Assembly (NCBI GenBank): GCA_030693145.1
Contig: JAUYBI010000056.1
Span: 1-39,433 of the forward strand
Length of the DNA: 39,433 nucleotides
Direction of reading: 5' to 3'
DNA from: Candidatus Omnitrophota bacterium
Lineage (GTDB): Bacteria; Omnitrophota; Gorgyraeia; Gygaellales; Profunditerraquicolaceae
Shown: positions 5,184-36,856 of the stretch, piece after piece
How the letters are laid out: every line of letters starts with the position of its first letter
Position numbering within the stretch: position 1 is the stretch's first letter
Position numbers and translations under genes: made by a program
Notes under the pieces: model-generated
What the model saw: only the letters and a program-made list of their open reading frames with translations
Told to the model about the DNA's origin: nothing
Databases searched by the model: none

Positions 5184-5260
5184 GATAAATTTTTGGTTAG
5201 ATTTTAGGCTTTCTTGCGTCTGTTATAGCAGGATGAAAATAATAATAACGTAGGAGGAGA
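5184..5260 (+). repeat. Leader repeat copy A upstream of the Bro-N gene
   Basis: GATAAATTTTTGGTTAGATTTTAGGCTTTCTTGCGTCTGTTATAGCAGGATGAAAATAATAATAACGTAGGAGGAGAG; matches copies at ~11450 and 16956. Confidence 0.75.
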
Positions 5261-6092: not shown

Positions 6093-6114
6093 ATACGGTG
6101 CCGTGAATTCATAG

Positions 6115-6284
6115 GAGAAACTTTGGTCTAAGAGAGAGCAACAGATTAAGAAAGTAGTTATTAGTACGGCGAGGATGTATGGAGATATGCAGGGAATAAT
6201 TGGCGCATCTTTGCCAGAGATAAAGAGTTTTGAGTTAAAGTCTTTAACTGATGAAACAGAAGTGATAAAAGCAGAAGAAATTTA
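6115..6284 (+). pseudogene. DUF2130 C-terminal fragment (duplicate of 10299-10446)
   Basis: Frame gives EKLWSKREQQIKKVVISTARMYGDMQGIIGASLPEIKSFELKSLTDETEVIKAEEI*, nearly identical to the end of the ORF at 9906-10463. Confidence 0.8.
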
Positions 6285-6324: not shown

Positions 6325-7857
6325 ATGGATAAAACAGTCCCAAGGTGTGTTATCTGTGGCAGGAAGCCGCGGGGAATCTGCCCGGCTTTGGAAAAGATAA
6401 TCTGTCCGGCCTGTTGTGGCTCAGGACGCGGGAGCAAGATACGCTGTATCCTGTCTTGTGGCTACTTTCCTTTTAGCATACCAGGATACGATTTATGGTT
6501 GAAGGTGGATGAAGGGTTGGTGCGCAAAAAGCTTGATTACCTTAAGTCTTACTATAACTACCGTGAATTTGAGGAAATGGTTGAACAGATGCGTTTTGCC
6601 AGCGGTATATCAGAAGAGGATGTTGGAACGGCAGAGGGCGCGGCGGTGTATCATCTGTTTTTTGTCAAGCGCGATGCCGACGGCCGCACTTTAGCCCAGA
6701 AGTGGCAGATGCAAGGGTGGGTTGGCCTTAATAATGACGAACGTATTATGATGGAGCACCGCTTTAGTTGCCGGGCTACAGTTATTGAAATAGAAAAAGT
6801 ATTGGATCATCAGAGCATGGAATGTATTGATTTATTAGAGCCGGAAAAAGGGAATTTCGTATTAATTGATCGCGCCACTGCCGCAAGGTCAGTGCGTTGG
6901 ACGCGGATGTTAACCTGGCTGGCGCACTACCCTTATTTTAGCCGCATCGCTAATAATGGTGTAGAGCTTTCGGATTCTGCGTTTGCCGAGTTTATGGATA
7001 GCTTACGCGATGCGTTTAGGAAAGAAAACCGCAAACACAAGGAACTAGTAATAAAAGACTACCTTTCAGAGAACTTCGGCGTATTTGGCAGCCTGATTTA
7101 TGACTTAAGCCGTGAGAGAAGTATTGCGGTATTGAAGAGGATGGATCTGCATCAATGCCGGGCAATATATAAAATTAAGGGGAATTATGGGGAGATTAAG
7201 GCAATCCTGGATAAAAATCCGGATTTTGAGCAGCGTGAAAGGCATCCGGACGAGCAGGATCTCCCGGGGGTGTATTATTACAGTTGGTTGCGCCGCGGCC
7301 AATCCAAAGCCTTAGAAAAAAATATGCCGGCGCATTTTCGGCATGGGCAGGAAAAGGATGAAGGCGTGGGCACCGTAGGAAATATCAGCCTTTTTCCGGA
7401 TAAACTCATTGTAGAGGCCTTTACTAAGCAAAAACATTCCTTTGCTAAAAGAATGGTTAGGAAGTTTTTCGGAGAGAATCTTTTATTACAGAATGAAGTG
7501 GTGGTGGATCTGGCCAAACAGCAGGCCGGGAAAATGGAGAATGATTATGAAGGTTATGCTCGGGAGATAATTTCAAATAAAGAGAAGAGTGGTACTAAAG
7601 ACATCCCGCCAGAAGTAGAGCGCGAGCTTATGCAAAAATTCTACAAGCGGCATTATACTATATTTCTTGAAGATAAAATCCCGGCCTTAGATGAGATGAC
7701 TCCCCGCGCCGCGGCAGCTGATCCGCAAATGCGGCCAAAGCTAATTGAGCTGATGAAGCAACATCTAAAGGGCATCGAGCAGCAGAATAAGGATAGAGGG
7801 TTAGATTTAAATATTGATTGGGTGTTGGATGAATTGTCCCTGCCGGAATTGAAGTAG
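6325..7857 (+). CDS. Hypothetical protein with N-terminal Cys-rich (zinc-binding-like) motif and C-terminal 'IPALDEMTPRAAA' motif
   Basis: CVICGRKPRGICPALEKIICPACCGSGRGSKIRCILSCGYFPF at the N-terminus; C-terminal segment as in SEC-C-associated proteins. Confidence 0.7.
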   Translation: MDKTVPRCVICGRKPRGICPALEKIICPACCGSGRGSKIRCILSCGYFPFSIPGYDLWLKVDEGLVRKKLDYLKSYYNYREFEEMVEQMRFASGISEEDVGTAEGAAVYHLFFVKRDADGRTLAQKWQMQGWVGLNNDERIMMEHRFSCRATVIEIEKVLDHQSMECIDLLEPEKGNFVLIDRATAARSVRWTRMLTWLAHYPYFSRIANNGVELSDSAFAEFMDSLRDAFRKENRKHKELVIKDYLSENFGVFGSLIYDLSRERSIAVLKRMDLHQCRAIYKIKGNYGEIKAILDKNPDFEQRERHPDEQDLPGVYYYSWLRRGQSKALEKNMPAHFRHGQEKDEGVGTVGNISLFPDKLIVEAFTKQKHSFAKRMVRKFFGENLLLQNEVVVDLAKQQAGKMENDYEGYAREIISNKEKSGTKDIPPEVERELMQKFYKRHYTIFLEDKIPALDEMTPRAAAADPQMRPKLIELMKQHLKGIEQQNKDRGLDLNIDWVLDELSLPELK

Positions 7858-9749: not shown

Positions 9750-10463
9750 ACAAACTATAATATGTCCATTTTGTAAGAAAGAAGACCTTGAGTCTGAAGA
9801 TAAGAAACTTCAGGAAACTCAACAAAACGAGCTCAACACGATATTATAGAGCCTGTTCCTAAAGGGATTAAAGGAGCTGATGTTTTACAGAAGGTTAATA
9901 ATCCCATGGGGCAGTATTGTGGAAGTATTATTTGGGAGTCTAAGCGCACAAGAAACTGGAGTGATGGCTGGATTGATAAATTAAAGGATGATCAGAGAGA
10001 AGTAAAGGCGGATATCGCAGTTTTAATGAGTATCGCTTTGCCTAAAGAAATAAATGGATTCTCTCAAGTTAAGGGAATATGGGTTACAAGTTTTCCTCTT
10101 GCTATGGGGCTTGCTTTGGCTTTGCGGGAAAATCTCTTGGAAGTTGCGAGCGCCAAACAGGCGGCAGTCGGAAAAGCCGAGAAAATGGAGGCAATCTATA
10201 ATTACTTTTCTGGAACAGAATTTAAGCAAAAGGTGGAGGCTATTGTAGAGGCATTTGTTACCATGAATACTGATTTAACTAAAGAGAAGGTAGCCATGGA
10301 GAAACTTTGGTCAAAGAGAGAGCAGCAGATTAAGAAAGTAGTTATTAGTACGGCGAGGATGTATGGAGATATGCAGGGGATAATTGGCGCATCTTTGCCA
10401 GAGATAAAGAGCCTTGAGTTAAAGTCTTTAACTGATGAAACAGAGGAAATAAGAGAAGGATGA
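9742..10463 (+). pseudogene. DUF2130 gene with internal deletion and frameshift
   Basis: N-terminal piece MAEQTIICPFCKKEDLESEDKKLQETQQNELNTIL* (9742-9849), then frame change to HDIIEPVPKGIKGADVLQKVNNPMGQYCGSIIWESKRTRNWSDGWIDKLKDDQREVKADIAV...; central coiled coil missing. Confidence 0.8.
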
Positions 10464-21876: not shown

Positions 21877-21893
21877 TTATTCATCTTACTATT

Positions 21894-22037
21894 ATTATAC
21901 CTTATAGGGTATAATAATTATTACTATTTAATAAAATATTATAAATTTTACCCGATAGGGGTTATTTGTTTATAATTGAACCCTATAAGGTATAATAATT
22001 AAAATAATACTTGCAATTATACCCGAAAGGTGGTATA
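21894..22037 (+). promoter_or_regulatory. HipB-type operator array and promoter
   Basis: ATTATACC-N6-GGTATAAT (21894-21915), inverted partial copy (21975-21996), TACCCGATAGG (21949-21959) and TATACC-N8-GGTATA (22018-22037); -35 TTGCAA 22011, -10 TATATT 22034. Confidence 0.65.
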
Positions 22038-31541: not shown

Positions 31542-31622
31542 GGGAACGGTTCTATTTTTTATCCAAAGAGTAGCTGACGTTTAAACCTCCCCTACTGTAA
31601 TGAAAAAATAGAACCGTCCTCT
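31542..31622. repeat. Composite hairpin element (GGTTC arms plus inner GTTTAAAC element)
   Basis: GGGAACGGTTCTATTTTTT ... AAAAAATAGAACCGTCCT with inner AGTAGCTGACGTTTAAACCTCCCCTACT (31569-31596). Confidence 0.9.
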
Positions 31623-31682
31623 GGTTTTATCTTTACTTTTAAGGTATACTTTAATACAGGGTAGATATAACCAGGAGAGACG

Positions 31683-32054
31683 ATGAAATTAACGCGTAGA
31701 GGGTTTTCATTAATTGAAACGATGCTTAGTGTTTCAATTCTATTAGTTGTGATTATCGCGGCCATGCTGGCGATTACCAATGTTATGTTTCTAAATGAAT
31801 CCAGCAGAAACCTGGTTACCGCGTCCAATGACGCGCAATATGTGCTGGAACAGATAAAAACAAAAAGTTTTAGCGATATTCCAGGCTTTGTTGGGGGCTA
31901 TCCTTCCGGTGAATTCAATAACTTACCGCAAGAAAATGTCAGTTTCCCGAATCCCGTATATACCGCGAATTTAGATACCATAACCGTTCAGATTAGCTGG
32001 AGTGAGAGAGATGCCACGAGAACATTTTCGATTACTACCTGTTTTGCGCAATAA
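31683..32054 (+). CDS. Prepilin-type N-terminal cleavage/methylation protein (PilV-like)
   Basis: RRGFSLIETMLSVSILLVVIIAAMLA. Confidence 0.85.
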   Translation: MKLTRRGFSLIETMLSVSILLVVIIAAMLAITNVMFLNESSRNLVTASNDAQYVLEQIKTKSFSDIPGFVGGYPSGEFNNLPQENVSFPNPVYTANLDTITVQISWSERDATRTFSITTCFAQ

Positions 32055-32607
32055 GCTCAGGGGCTTTAGTTTGGTAGAAGTGCTCCTGGTTGTCGTTATC
32101 TTAAGCGTGATTATTGGGGTATGCCTTTACGCCCTGAACGCGGCGCAGGTTGCATTTAATTTAACTTTGGCCCAGAGAAACCTTCAGTCAGAAGTAGGGC
32201 GGACAATCGGCTGGATAGTAAAAGATACCCGCCAGGCGGTTAGTTGGGATATAGCCGACAATAATCCTACTCCGGATTATATTAAATTTAGGCAGGTTAC
32301 CGGATGGGATACCGTTAATAATACTTTTTCATTAAGCAGTAATCATATAGAATATACTTATAATGCCGTTGCCCATACAATCACCCGCAGGGATATCGGC
32401 GGTACCACCAGAGAATGGATTCTGAATAATGTATTCGCTTCGCCTTTTTTTACCATTGATTCTTCCGGGGGTATTGTTGCATTGAATGCGGTCGATTTAC
32501 GTACTAGCAAACAGTTAGTGATTACTATTTTCGGCCAAAGCAGTGTGCTAAATTTACCGGATACAACTTATAGTTTAACCGAAAGGGTGCAGATAAGAAA
32601 TGGCTAA
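32011..32607 (+). CDS. Prepilin-type protein (PilW-like)
   Basis: LRGFSLVEVLLVVVILSVIIGVCLYAL. Confidence 0.85.
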   Translation: MPREHFRLLPVLRNKLRGFSLVEVLLVVVILSVIIGVCLYALNAAQVAFNLTLAQRNLQSEVGRTIGWIVKDTRQAVSWDIADNNPTPDYIKFRQVTGWDTVNNTFSLSSNHIEYTYNAVAHTITRRDIGGTTREWILNNVFASPFFTIDSSGGIVALNAVDLRTSKQLVITIFGQSSVLNLPDTTYSLTERVQIRNG

Positions 32608-33490
32608 TAATCGAGGCGTAGTTTTAGTTTTTTCACTGCTATTAACTCTGATTTTATCTTCTGTGCTGGGGGCGTTGTATCTTAGCGTTACCAGCGAAAA
32701 CCAGCAGGTTAACCAAAACGTAAATTCCACGCGTGCTTTTTGGCTGGCGGAAGCGGGGATTGCTACCGTGAAAGCTAATCCGGGGCTTGGGGCGGTAAGC
32801 GGCAATCTTGGAGGCTCTAATTATACTTATAATGTGCCTGCGCCTCAGGTTGTACCGGGTACGAATAATGTATATTGGATTGTAAATTCTACAGGTACTG
32901 TTAACTTGCCGAGCGGTTCTAGCGTAAGCAGGACGTTGACGGCTACCATAAAAACAGCGGGCGCGGATTCTTCCAAGTTTCCCTATGCCATAGACACAAC
33001 TGCCGAACTGGAAATTAAGGGCAACGCTGTTACTATAAATGGCACTCCAAAACAAAGTGATAATACCATTAATTTTACCAACATGTTTGGTATTTCAAAA
33101 ACAACGATGGAGGCTAGCGCAAATCATCTTTATACCAATAGTAATTTTAGCGCGCCGGTTGACGGCATAACTTGGGTAAATGTGGCTTCAGGCGGTACTC
33201 TGAATATATCCGGCAATCTTACCGGAAGCGGTATTTTGGTTATAAACGGCAATGCGAAGTTTTCCGGCACAGTGGTATTTAACGGTATAATTTACGTTAT
33301 AGGCACATTGACGATGACAGGTAATGTGACCACTAACGGCAGCATTGTTGCCGAGAGCTCTGCAGAAGCAGATACTACCTTAACCGGGAGTGTTACCATA
33401 AACTTTAATCTTCTCCAGATAGAGAATGCGTTGGCTAATGTAGAGTTTTTAAACAAGCAGATAGTCGCCTGGCGGGAGCAACAAGTTTAG
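32600..33490 (+). CDS. PilX-like pilus assembly protein
   Basis: NNRGVVLVFSLLLTLILSSVLGALYLSVTSENQ; overlaps the upstream gene. Confidence 0.75.
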   Translation: MANNRGVVLVFSLLLTLILSSVLGALYLSVTSENQQVNQNVNSTRAFWLAEAGIATVKANPGLGAVSGNLGGSNYTYNVPAPQVVPGTNNVYWIVNSTGTVNLPSGSSVSRTLTATIKTAGADSSKFPYAIDTTAELEIKGNAVTINGTPKQSDNTINFTNMFGISKTTMEASANHLYTNSNFSAPVDGITWVNVASGGTLNISGNLTGSGILVINGNAKFSGTVVFNGIIYVIGTLTMTGNVTTNGSIVAESSAEADTTLTGSVTINFNLLQIENALANVEFLNKQIVAWREQQV

Positions 33491-33508
33491 AATAAAGGGA
33501 CCGTTTTA

Positions 33509-33607
33509 GAATAAAGGGACCGTTTCTATTTTTTATTATGACTCAGTAGCTGACGTTTAAACGTCAGCTACTCTTTAGATAAAAAATAGAAACGGCCCCT
33601 TTATTCT
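33509..33607. repeat. Composite hairpin element (GTTTC arms plus inner GTTTAAAC palindrome)
   Basis: AGAATAAAGGGACCGTTTCTATTTTTT ... AAAAAATAGAAACGGCCCCTTTATTCT (26/27), inner AGTAGCTGACGTTTAAACGTCAGCTACT (33545-33572) perfect. Confidence 0.95.
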
Positions 33608-33683
33608 TGACAATAAAACAGTTATGTTATAGGATGTCATAGCGACGAGAATTAAGAAGCGGGGGATCAACCAGGGGGGTCAG

Positions 33684-34346
33684 ATGAACATATTCGTAGG
33701 TAATTTATCTTTTGAAGCCAAGGAAATAGATGTGCAGAGGGCTTTTATGGCTTTTGGCGTAGTTACTTCGGTGGCGATTGTGATGGAGAAAAAAGGCAAA
33801 AAATCCCGGGGGTTTGGGTTTGTCGAGATGCCTGATGAGCAGGAGGCGCTGGCGGCGATTGCTCAGCTGCAGGGCAAAGAAATATTGGGCAGGCCGCTTA
33901 ATGTTACCTCTGCTGTATCGAAGGGGCCAAAAAGTGAACCTAGCGGCAAAAGAAATAAGCATTCAGCGACAGTTGCTTCCAGGCTTGATCCTTCTTTTAA
34001 GCGGACAGGAAAATATAAAGAAGGCAGGCGTTCGCTGAGTTATGTCAAACAAAGAACGGATGCCGGAATTACTGCCCCGGTTCCTGAACGTAGATATAAA
34101 TCTAATCCTATGCGTTGGCTCAAGAAGCCAAGAACGCAAGCACGTTTCGCGAAACCTGAAGGTGAGCTTAAGCCCTGGAAGCGGCCTCAAACTGAATCCA
34201 AGCCATGGAAAAAACCTGAAAGCGCCGCCGCACCCAGGCCTTGGAAAAAGTCTGCCAGCGCGGCTAAGCCTTGGCGTAAAAGCAGCGCTGATCGTCAGCA
34301 ATCCGGATTCAAAAAACCTAGCCGCTTTAGCAAGTCCTATAAATGA
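33684..34346 (+). CDS. RRM RNA-binding protein with K/P/W-rich C-terminal tail
   Basis: NIFVGNLSFEAKEIDVQRAF...KSRGFGFVEMPD (RNP2/RNP1); repeated KPWKKP-type tail. Confidence 0.93.
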   Translation: MNIFVGNLSFEAKEIDVQRAFMAFGVVTSVAIVMEKKGKKSRGFGFVEMPDEQEALAAIAQLQGKEILGRPLNVTSAVSKGPKSEPSGKRNKHSATVASRLDPSFKRTGKYKEGRRSLSYVKQRTDAGITAPVPERRYKSNPMRWLKKPRTQARFAKPEGELKPWKRPQTESKPWKKPESAAAPRPWKKSASAAKPWRKSSADRQQSGFKKPSRFSKSYK

Positions 34347-34588
34347 AATTAAAACTTAATCTTTTTCCGGTAGTCCCGGATATGGAAGACAAGATTGCCT
34401 CTATCCTGCAGGAGGCGGTAGATGGCCGCGCCAGTATCGTGGAGATTGCTTACGGAACCGCCGCGGAAAGCGTAAAGAAGCGCATCCTTAACTTTTTAAA
34501 CAAAAAAGAGAACCGCCGGCTTTATTCCAGATTAGAGAAAACCGATAAAGGTTGGGGAAGAATTTACCTGCATTTCAGATGGAAATGA
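34343..34588 (+). CDS. Smr-domain-like small protein
   Basis: DGRASIVEIAYGTAAESVKKRILNFLNKKENRRLYSRLEKTDKGWGRIYLHFRWK; ATGA overlap with the RRM gene. Confidence 0.6.
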   Translation: MKLKLNLFPVVPDMEDKIASILQEAVDGRASIVEIAYGTAAESVKKRILNFLNKKENRRLYSRLEKTDKGWGRIYLHFRWK

Positions 34589-34593
34589 GTAAA

Positions 34594-34696
34594 TCAAGGG
34601 GGCGGTTCTATTTTTTAGAATTATAAGAAAAGTAGCGGAGGTTTAAACCTCCGCTACTAAGACATCTGTATGAAAAAAATAGAACCGTCACCTTGA
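34594..34696. repeat. Composite hairpin element (GGTTC arms plus inner GTTTAAAC palindrome)
   Basis: TCAAGGGGGCGGTTCTATTTTTT ... AAAAAATAGAACCGTCACCTTGA, inner AGTAGCGGAGGTTTAAACCTCCGCTACT (34631-34658) perfect. Confidence 0.95.
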
Positions 34697-34706
34697 ATCT
34701 AAACTT

Positions 34707-36716
34707 ATGGAAAAAAATAATCTCATTGACGAATTTTACGCATTAGTGCAGGTTGATGACGCCGACGGCCATTACGCTCAGGATATAAAAGACAGCGATT
34801 ATTTTGGCATGCCGCTTAAGGCGATTGTTAAAGCGGAAAAAAGATTGCGCTTAAAATCAGAGCGCTGTATTGCTTATTTTTCGATGGAGTATGGCTTAGC
34901 CACCAGCTGTTACAATAAATTATCCAGCCAATTACCCCTTAATCCTTCTAACCGGGTTCCGGAAAACGCGGTTTTTTCAAATTTTCGCGTGGCGGATTAT
35001 TTCTTTGCTTTGCACCAGGATAATATTATTGACCTGCCGATTTACAGCGGAGGCTTAGGTGTTTTAGCGGGGGATACGGTGAAGACCATGGCGGACTATA
35101 AGCTTCCGGTGGCGGCCATCGGGATACTTTGGAGCTCAGGCTATTTTAGGCAGAAGTTCTGGTTTAAATATGGCCAGGCTCCCGAAAAAATGCGCTGGGA
35201 TCCGCATACCTACCCGGGGTTAATCCCTTTAAAAAACAGAATTAAGATTTCCCTTAAATCTGAAGATGTTTACTTGAGATTGTGGAAATATTATGTTTAT
35301 AGCCAGGCTCTGGATGCGGTTGTGCCTTTGATCTTGTTAGATTCTAATATCGAACCGAATAGCCAGAACGCCAGGAATTTAACGGATCAGCTTTACCGCA
35401 GTGACAATATATTCCTAAAGTTATTACAGAGGGTGATGCTGGGTTTCGGAGGAGTAAGCGCCCTAAAGGATTTAGGTTATCATATCGACACTTATCATCT
35501 GAATGAAGGGCATGCGGTTTTTGCTTTTATTGCCCAGGCCAGAGGCATGAGTAAAGATGAATTGGAAAACTTAAAAAGCAAATTTGTTTACACCTGCCAT
35601 ACTCCGGTTGAGGCCGGCCATGACCGGTTCTCTTTTGAGGATTTGAATAAAGTGCTTAAGCCGGAAGACACCGAGATTATCGAAAAATTCGGGAAAGAAC
35701 GTTCAGGGGCGGCTAATCTTACGTTGCTTTCGATGAACATTTCTTCGGCGATAAACGCGGTTTCTCACAGCCATCAGAAAGTAATGCATATTCAATTTCC
35801 GGATTATAAAGATCAAATACAATATGTGACTAACGGCGTGCACGCGTATACCTGGATGTCGCGGGGATTCCAGGAGCTTTTTAATAAATTTCCGGCAACC
35901 TTTCCTGATTTTAAAAGCAATCCGATGATCTTATCCCGGGCCACAGAACTTAAGGCGGATGCTGATTTTCGCGCGCGGTTATGGCAGGCGCATCAATCCA
36001 ATAAAACTGATTTGTGTAAATTCTTAGAGAAGTGGAAGCTGGATAAAAATATCTTTACTATCTGTTGGGCCAGGAGAATGGCGGCGTATAAGCGGCCGAG
36101 CCTTATTTTGTATGATATTAGCAGGTTAGCGCGGATTGCCGATAAAATCGGGCCTTTGCAGATTATTTTGGCCGGTAAGGCGCATCCGAATGATAATTTA
36201 GGCTTTACTTATATTAATGAGATGTTGGACAAAGTGGATAAGTTAAATGTAGATTACGATAAATTAAAAATTATTGTGCTGGAGAATTATGATATCTTTT
36301 TGGGTAAGTTACTTAGTTCCAGCGTTGATGTTTGGCTGAATAATCCTCTGCCGCCCTTTGAGGCTTCGGGGACCAGCGGAATGAAAGCGATCTTAAATGG
36401 AGTTTTACAGATGAGCACAGTTGATGGCTGGGTAGCTGAGGCAACGGACAGAAAGATGGGCGCTTTTTTTGGATATAAGAATAGCGAAGGCAGTGTAGGC
36501 AATGAATCGGATTTACATATGCCTGATGATTCCGAAGAGTTGTATCGCGCCCTGGAGGGGATGGTTAGCCTATATTATAAAACCAATAGCCGGGGGAAAG
36601 TTGATATTAACTCCGGTTGGATAGATATGATGATTGAGTGTGTTTGTGTTGCTGGGCAGTTTAACACCTATCGCATGGTTGATGAATATAAGCAGAAAAT
36701 CTGGAAGATTGCTTAG
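34707..36716 (+). CDS. glgP: Alpha-glucan (glycogen) phosphorylase, short bacterial type
   Basis: IAYFSMEYGLA...YSGGLGVLAGDTVKTMADYKLP...HLNEGHAVFAFIAQARG...FEASGTSGMKAILNGVLQMSTVDGW. Confidence 0.95.
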   Translation: MEKNNLIDEFYALVQVDDADGHYAQDIKDSDYFGMPLKAIVKAEKRLRLKSERCIAYFSMEYGLATSCYNKLSSQLPLNPSNRVPENAVFSNFRVADYFFALHQDNIIDLPIYSGGLGVLAGDTVKTMADYKLPVAAIGILWSSGYFRQKFWFKYGQAPEKMRWDPHTYPGLIPLKNRIKISLKSEDVYLRLWKYYVYSQALDAVVPLILLDSNIEPNSQNARNLTDQLYRSDNIFLKLLQRVMLGFGGVSALKDLGYHIDTYHLNEGHAVFAFIAQARGMSKDELENLKSKFVYTCHTPVEAGHDRFSFEDLNKVLKPEDTEIIEKFGKERSGAANLTLLSMNISSAINAVSHSHQKVMHIQFPDYKDQIQYVTNGVHAYTWMSRGFQELFNKFPATFPDFKSNPMILSRATELKADADFRARLWQAHQSNKTDLCKFLEKWKLDKNIFTICWARRMAAYKRPSLILYDISRLARIADKIGPLQIILAGKAHPNDNLGFTYINEMLDKVDKLNVDYDKLKIIVLENYDIFLGKLLSSSVDVWLNNPLPPFEASGTSGMKAILNGVLQMSTVDGWVAEATDRKMGAFFGYKNSEGSVGNESDLHMPDDSEELYRALEGMVSLYYKTNSRGKVDINSGWIDMMIECVCVAGQFNTYRMVDEYKQKIWKIA

Positions 36717-36769
36717 GGCCTGCCTTGACTGCCGTCAGGCAGGCGACAGGCAGGAACTTCCCCTATAGC

Positions 36770-36819
36770 TTATTAACAATAGTAGGGTGGGTTTAAACCC
36801 ACCCTACTATTGTTAATAA
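36770..36819. repeat. 50-nt perfect palindrome centred on GTTTAAAC
   Basis: TTATTAACAATAGTAGGGTGGGTTT|AAACCCACCCTACTATTGTTAATAA. Confidence 0.97.
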
Positions 36820-36856
36820 AAGTCAGCAGAGTTTATTGCAATGTCGAGGAGAAGCC

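Follow-up and report, generated by a model that had tools for sequence, protein, structure and literature searches.

We analysed a 39,433-nucleotide (nt) stretch of DNA (hereafter the window; contig JAUYBI010000056.1, or C29, of assembly GCA_030693145.1) from a Candidatus Omnitrophota bacterium, whose metagenome-assembled genome (hereafter the source genome) spans 1.8 Mb in 75 contigs and is 94% complete. A first-pass annotation had placed four copies of a 28-bp palindrome in the window and likened them to repetitive extragenic palindromic (REP) sequences or bacterial interspersed mosaic elements (BIMEs) moved by REP-associated tyrosine transposases (RAYTs). A pattern search of the window returned exactly four matches, at those positions, each with 0 mismatches where three were allowed and against 0.02 expected from dinucleotide shuffles. 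As had also been claimed, the copies at 31569, 33545 and 34631 sit inside GGGAC..GTCCC outer hairpins, read from the sequence, and the fourth is enclosed in a perfect palindrome of 25 + 25 nt. The features are listed below with the evidence for each in brackets; no strand is given for any of them, and 'double-foot' denotes GTAG at one end of the unit and CTAC at the other.

31542..31560, left arm of the GGGAC-type outer hairpin of the 31569 copy (sequence)
31569..31596, chimeric double-foot REP, left half of CTGAC type and right half of CTCCC type, junction GTTTAAAC (pattern search, half-by-half comparison, folding)
31603..31621, right arm of the outer hairpin of the 31569 copy (sequence, repeat D3)
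33508..33536, left arm of the outer hairpin of the 33545 copy (inverted repeat I6, folding)
33545..33572, perfect double-foot REP, stem CTGAC/GTCAG (search, folding, orthologue comparison)
33579..33607, right arm of the outer hairpin of the 33545 copy (inverted repeat I6, folding)
34598..34616, left arm of the outer hairpin of the 34631 copy (sequence)
34631..34658, perfect double-foot REP, stem CGGAG/CTCCG (search, orthologue comparison)
34674..34692, right arm of the outer hairpin of the 34631 copy (sequence, repeat D3)
36770..36819, perfect 50-nt palindrome enclosing the 36781 copy (inverted repeat I9, folding)
36781..36808, perfect double-foot REP, stem GGTGG/CCACC (search, orthologue comparison)
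36809..36845, right arm, ATTGTTAATAAAAGTCAGCAGAGTTTATTGCAATGTC, of a context like a miniature inverted-repeat transposable element (MITE), common to other copies (flank comparison)

Folded as single-stranded DNA (ssDNA), two perfect 28-mers reach −12.5 and −13.2 kcal/mol, the nested structure at 33508-33607 reaches −36.4 kcal/mol (z −11.3) and the 50-mer −23.2 kcal/mol. The mixed copy at 31569 does not fold (−0.1 kcal/mol); its two halves, together with their flanks, each look like a different subfamily, and the junction lies in the core.

Across the source genome, the pattern AGTAGN5GTTTAAACN5CTACT occurs in 151 exact copies and its reversed control in none. Detailed analysis covered 737 kb of the 1.8 Mb, in which a relaxed definition finds 112 copies, 93 of them perfect across all 14 pairs. 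GGGAG/CTCCC (49 copies) and GGTGG/CCACC (42) are the commonest stems; rarer ones include AGGAG, TGGAG, CGGAG, CTGAC, GTGAC and GGCAG, with the complement opposite in nearly all. Ends and core had been described as fixed, but the outermost pair can be A..T or C..G, and beyond the source genome the core varies, with CTTAAG as well as TTTAAA. The unit can be written GTAG-N7-TTAA-N7-CTAC. When only GTAG, TTAA and CTAC are required, a set of collected loci (L numbers below) yields 241 sites, of which 220 are fully paired over the seven free positions and which comprise 44 distinct units. Among these units 95.0% of cells are paired, compared with 76.8% after shuffling and at most 47% when slid, and the covariation score is 0.423 versus 0.110 shuffled, a value that 0 of 500 shuffles reach; all seven free stem pairs show two-sided changes. 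Neither outcome that would have told against the first-pass proposal, a lack of further copies or a lack of covariation across the variable five-nucleotide arms, was observed, and covariation holds in this larger set.

With a GTAG foot at the hairpin base and CTAC at the opposite end, a high copy number, a mainly extragenic location and subfamilies that differ by complementary stem changes, the palindromes have the properties of REPs. They are not classical BIMEs or REPINs, which consist of one-footed asymmetric REPs in pairs of opposite orientation; here the unit is symmetric and most copies are single. Although the sampled DNA is 91% genic, only 6 of the 112 copies fall inside open reading frame (ORF) calls. 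An in-frame palindrome within an rfbB-like NAD-dependent epimerase/dehydratase gene is translated RRGGLNLPY (L130, 13072-13099) and is shared with a relative of another species (L083, 4438-4465). Rickettsia palindromic elements are likewise short palindromes inserted in frame in protein genes, but they are longer than the Omnitrophota palindrome, intragenic copies are the exception here, and the Rickettsia elements are not known to us to have a RAYT or a GTAG foot. Perfect symmetry, fixed ends and core, and many dispersed copies would also suit duplex sites bound by a dimeric protein of nucleoid or partition-like kind, from which the symmetry would derive. A sequence-specific dimer does not, however, predict a stem interior that is free to change so long as it stays paired, and the RAYT flanking and patchy distribution described below also count against such sites, which we consider highly improbable.

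Perfect, RNA-capable hairpins whose usual place is the intergenic gap separating co-directional genes, and whose orthologous copies are well conserved, could instead be host regulatory hairpins, that is, bidirectional terminators or mRNA stabilisers under selection. Copies fall between co-directional, divergent and convergent genes in the proportions 82/11/2 against 82/9/4 expected; placement tracks intergenic space with no orientation preference, and convergent ends are not favoured, which speaks against a terminator role. Moreover, no T-run follows the stem in the copies read, Rfam gives no match, presence is patchy between species of one genus, some copies lie inside ORFs and the RAYT association is left unexplained. 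On the negative placement test and the empty Rfam search we rejected a terminator or RNA element, and regulatory hairpins in the wider sense seem to us very unlikely.

In five loci (L021, L032, L033, L034 and L098) a short ORF has the palindrome on both sides, the gene in L033 being broken. The intact flanked proteins are 163 amino acids (aa) long and match Pfam Y1_Tnp, and the two that were tested score 111-117 bits against NCBIfam NF047646 (REP_Tyr_transpos; equivalog cut-off 80). The best PDB match of their profile is 4ER8 (E 3e-9), a structure of E. coli TnpA-REP in complex with a REP hairpin, to which the HUH, WQ and Y..NP motifs align, and 4ER8 is again the best match of the predicted fold, whose pLDDT of 67 is modest. 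By their HUH and Y..NP catalytic motifs and profile scores above the cut-off, these proteins are RAYTs (TnpA-REP), and the loci have the layout of a REPtron, a RAYT gene flanked by its REP, which is found in relatives and not in the source genome. Searching 286 genomes with a protein profile revealed further members with the same palindrome type at their ends, some with changed stem and core (for example, GTAGGTCACCCTTAAGGGTGACCTAC). None of the Y1 genes examined that score below 119 bits has at its ends either the palindrome or the DnaA box described below, and nearly all above that score have both; the exceptions are L141, with neither, L138, without the box, and L137, in which the box stands beside a palindrome outside the definition used. 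In a tree, a single 100/100 group, 16 rows in size, contains all flanked genes together with three unflanked ones. The palindrome occurs in 8 of the 11 genomes with this clade versus 14 of the 275 without (P = 5e-8). The RAYT gene of L021, L032, L034 and L098 lies near comM (identified by Pfam Mg_chelatase domains for L032 and the source-genome copy, and by sequence similarity at the other loci), suggesting that the gene is inherited vertically and keeps its location. The REP and RAYT reading of the first-pass annotation is upheld by the GTAG foot, the more than 150 copies, nearly always intergenic, the covarying stem and the RAYT genes flanked on both sides in relatives; with its symmetric double foot the unit is no classical BIME unit, and movement by a RAYT is what the relatives suggest for the window.

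Double-foot REPs, which begin with GT[AG]G and finish with the complementary C[TC]AC, are already known from TnpA-REP subclass 2.4 (Quentin et al. 2018, PMC6006769), and RAYT-associated REPs of the GTAG type have long been known too (Di Nocera et al. 2013, PMC3733652). The Omnitrophota elements share with subclass 2.4 the two-ended foot, a flanked RAYT gene, the WQ and Y..NNP motifs and frame-keeping REP insertions, the assignment being one of motif agreement (WQ, Y..NNP) with which the subclass 2.6 motifs are also compatible. They differ from it in the adjacent DnaA box, which is not reported there, in the length of their RAYTs (163 aa versus a subclass median of 194), in belonging to a new phylum and in that we found no REPs inside intact Omnitrophota RAYT genes (PMC6006769). 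With the GTAG REPs and REPtrons they have in common the GTAG tag, high copy number, complementary-stem subfamilies, RAYT genes flanked by REPs and occasional copies within genes, but the GTAG of those REPs is unpaired and at one end, whereas here it pairs with CTAC in a symmetric unit (PMC3733652).

The sequence TTATCCACA, usually as AGTTATCCACA, stands 1-4 nt from GTAG and points at the palindrome in all but a few cases; nearly every end of a RAYT unit has it on the gene side, pointing at the hairpin. It is an exact match to the high-affinity DnaA consensus TT[AT]TNCACA (PMC6006769). Thirteen of the 15 copies near RAYT genes have the box, as do copies away from RAYT genes in the source genome (5 of 109, 0.010 expected) and elsewhere (8 of 93, 0.032 expected), the expectations being calculated from how frequent the box is in that DNA. 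Loci that came to light afterwards through the protein profile provide an independent check of the association, and the box persists at L137, L139, L142 and L167, whose palindromes have an altered stem and core. The constant placement and direction of the box next to the hairpin, and its conservation at RAYT ends, in many cases with AG added, would equally suit a subterminal inverted repeat that forms part of the RAYT recognition sequence rather than a DnaA site, a reading to which we give about an even chance and which would leave our explanation, set out below, otherwise intact. Against it stand the identity of TTATCCACA with the DnaA consensus (PMC6006769) and the precedent of a DnaA site at the end of the Tn5 transposon (Yin and Reznikoff 1987, cited in PMC3347997). 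Tn5/IS50 ends are alike in carrying a DnaA box and unlike in their unrelated DDE transposase, double-strand chemistry and a box that lies inside the transposase site. For the GGGG-type repeats of related transposases with a DnaA-like domain, the authors of PMC6006769 see no likeness to the DnaA consensus. That RAYT-REP ends include a functional DnaA box, through which the initiator would help to load, open or time ssDNA transposition of a symmetric, either-strand hairpin, is a tentative and rather doubtful extension.

We think it likely that the palindromes are double-foot GTAG REPs with boxed ends that were founded by a RAYT and are now passengers in the source genome. The founder would be a RAYT, an HUH/Y1 single-strand nuclease, with its gene bounded by two hairpins in related Omnitrophota. 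Replication is generally believed to supply single-strand transposases with their substrate; on ssDNA at a replication fork or on a DnaA-opened strand, the palindrome would form a hairpin with a 12-bp stem and a 4-nt loop, and the RAYT would read the GTAG foot, then cut and rejoin at that point. Either strand could serve, as the GTAG hairpin is identical on both. Within the source genome, copies would ride in the loops of GGGGAC-type terminal inverted repeat (TIR) hairpins and in the MITE-like repeat and would be reshuffled by recombination with one another, and arm complementarity may be maintained either through selection for a hairpin or through templated correction within a strand.

The contexts of the 112 sampled copies, split by a loose motif test, are in keeping with such carriage: a MITE-like repeat with GACATTATATTAAACTCTGCTGACTTT-like arms surrounds about 41, GGGGAC-type hairpins contain or adjoin about 22, about 39 are in no recognised context, and the rest have only a DnaA-box-like neighbour, so that TIR- or MITE-like contexts account for about half or more. 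The outer GGGAC arms appear to be a separate repeat class resembling the GGGGWSAS TIRs of TIRYT transposases (PMC3733652; subclass 2.1 in PMC6006769). The resemblance is in the GGGGACGG/GGGGACAG arms, and a Y1 gene of the source genome (L019) has GGGGACAG ends; here, though, the REP is nested in the loop as a second element, and GGGGACGG deviates from the consensus in a single letter. Copies seem to have spread partly as passengers inside these outer repeats. As copies are most numerous where the cognate RAYT is missing, carriage by other elements is a reasonable, if unproven, cause of the expansion.

The first-pass annotation had suggested looking for a Y1 or RAYT gene elsewhere in the genome, and four Y1 genes are indeed present, but none belongs to the cognate clade. 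We rejected all four as the cognate RAYT, as none is palindrome-flanked and all lie outside the flanked clade; this includes the C28 gene, which has two copies about 350 bp away. The C43 gene (L129, 6540-7190) adjoins comM, where relatives keep the double-foot RAYT, and is bounded by its own TCTAACCTGGTTAGA repeats, and the C60 gene (L019, 1187-1941) has the ends GGGGACAGCTACCATAATTAT..GGTAGCTGTCCCC of a TIRYT-like unit. No Y1 gene with GGGGACGGTTCTATTTTT ends was identified. Movement of the source-genome palindromes by another Y1 transposase or an unseen enzyme, with the double-foot RAYT clade never involved, would fit the occurrence of most copies where the cognate RAYT is absent and the closeness of the C28 gene to two of them. 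Yet the four available Y1 genes have the failings just described, source-genome copies still carry the RAYT-type DnaA box above expectation and the RAYT is present in same-genus genomes; we hold this alternative to be unlikely.

Among 286 Omnitrophota genomes, 22 have the palindrome, in 1 to 151 copies each. The distribution is patchy: most genomes of the window's own genus lack it, the source genome is the richest, and KR13_N1.mb.50 and bin S2.101 hold 70 and 47 copies. Matches listed in the named survey come almost only from Omnitrophota, Elusimicrobia and Endomicrobia contributing a single record each; a Metabacillus match (L037), whose stem forms 3 of 7 pairs, was rejected as coincidental.

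Orthologous sites were compared mainly with KR13_N1.mb.50 (JAHIKK), which is ~90-96% identical in larger syntenic stretches. One site shows a compensatory change, with AGGAG/CTCCT in the source genome (L130:11278) and GGGAG/CTCCC in L083. At 33545 the loop is swapped, the same outer hairpin holding a CTGAC unit here and a GGGAG/CTCCC unit in KR13_N1.mb.50; the outer hairpin at 34631 contains the palindrome here and not in the orthologue; and the 36781 copy is unchanged. Over 12 orthologous pairs, 6 of 336 positions differ where the flank rate predicts ~51, a count that leaves out two pairs whose members do not represent one and the same copy (L090/L128 and the loop swap), is low partly through ascertainment, since loci were found by fixed positions, and includes some pairs that depend on one another. 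These patterns are alike compatible with selection, with recombination among the copies and with templated hairpin correction. Differences between genomes at palindrome sites span ~50-130 bp, and one is flanked by a 13-bp direct repeat (L067:3630 versus L200). Beside the orthologue of the 31569 site, KR13_N1.mb.50 has a short extra gene (L074, ~7170-7560) that the window lacks, a difference of ~430 bp.

Several points weigh against a RAYT origin with later passenger spread. The source genome, at its 94% completeness, yielded four other Y1 transposases but none from the cognate RAYT clade; with the clade also absent from KR13_N1.mb.50 and S2.101, the number of copies is not tied to the presence of a RAYT in this group. 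The comparison of empty sites that had been suggested gave no clean 28-bp filled/empty pair, and neither an empty site nor a target duplication marking such an insertion was found between the genomes compared. The box probabilities are post hoc, as the box was noticed before testing. Finally, RAYT cleavage of the GTAG hairpin and the participation of DnaA at the element ends are steps that we infer from sequence.

In the literature searched, we found no description of a DnaA box at RAYT-REP element ends (PMC6006769 among the papers covered), of REPs nested in TIR hairpins, of an Omnitrophota host or of expansion without a cognate RAYT, and no paper joining Omnitrophota with 'repetitive extragenic palindromic'. 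A DnaA box 1-4 nt from the hairpin, kept despite stem change, offers a direct and testable link between a RAYT and ssDNA. With more than 150 mostly perfect copies and no cognate RAYT, the source genome offers a natural setting in which to ask how REP hairpins stay perfect after the loss of their transposase, and nesting in a second class of hairpin repeat suggests that REPs can ride other mobile elements.

The window contains other repeats. A direct repeat of 161 nt with 94% identity (D2) joins 6114-6274 and 10298-10458, and AT-rich repeats form an inverted pair around TACCTTATAGGGTATAATAAT at 21890-22001 (D12/I13). A 72-nt family (D4) at 5184, 11451 and 16956, possibly an element family of its own, resembles the upstream flank of the L017 Y1 gene.

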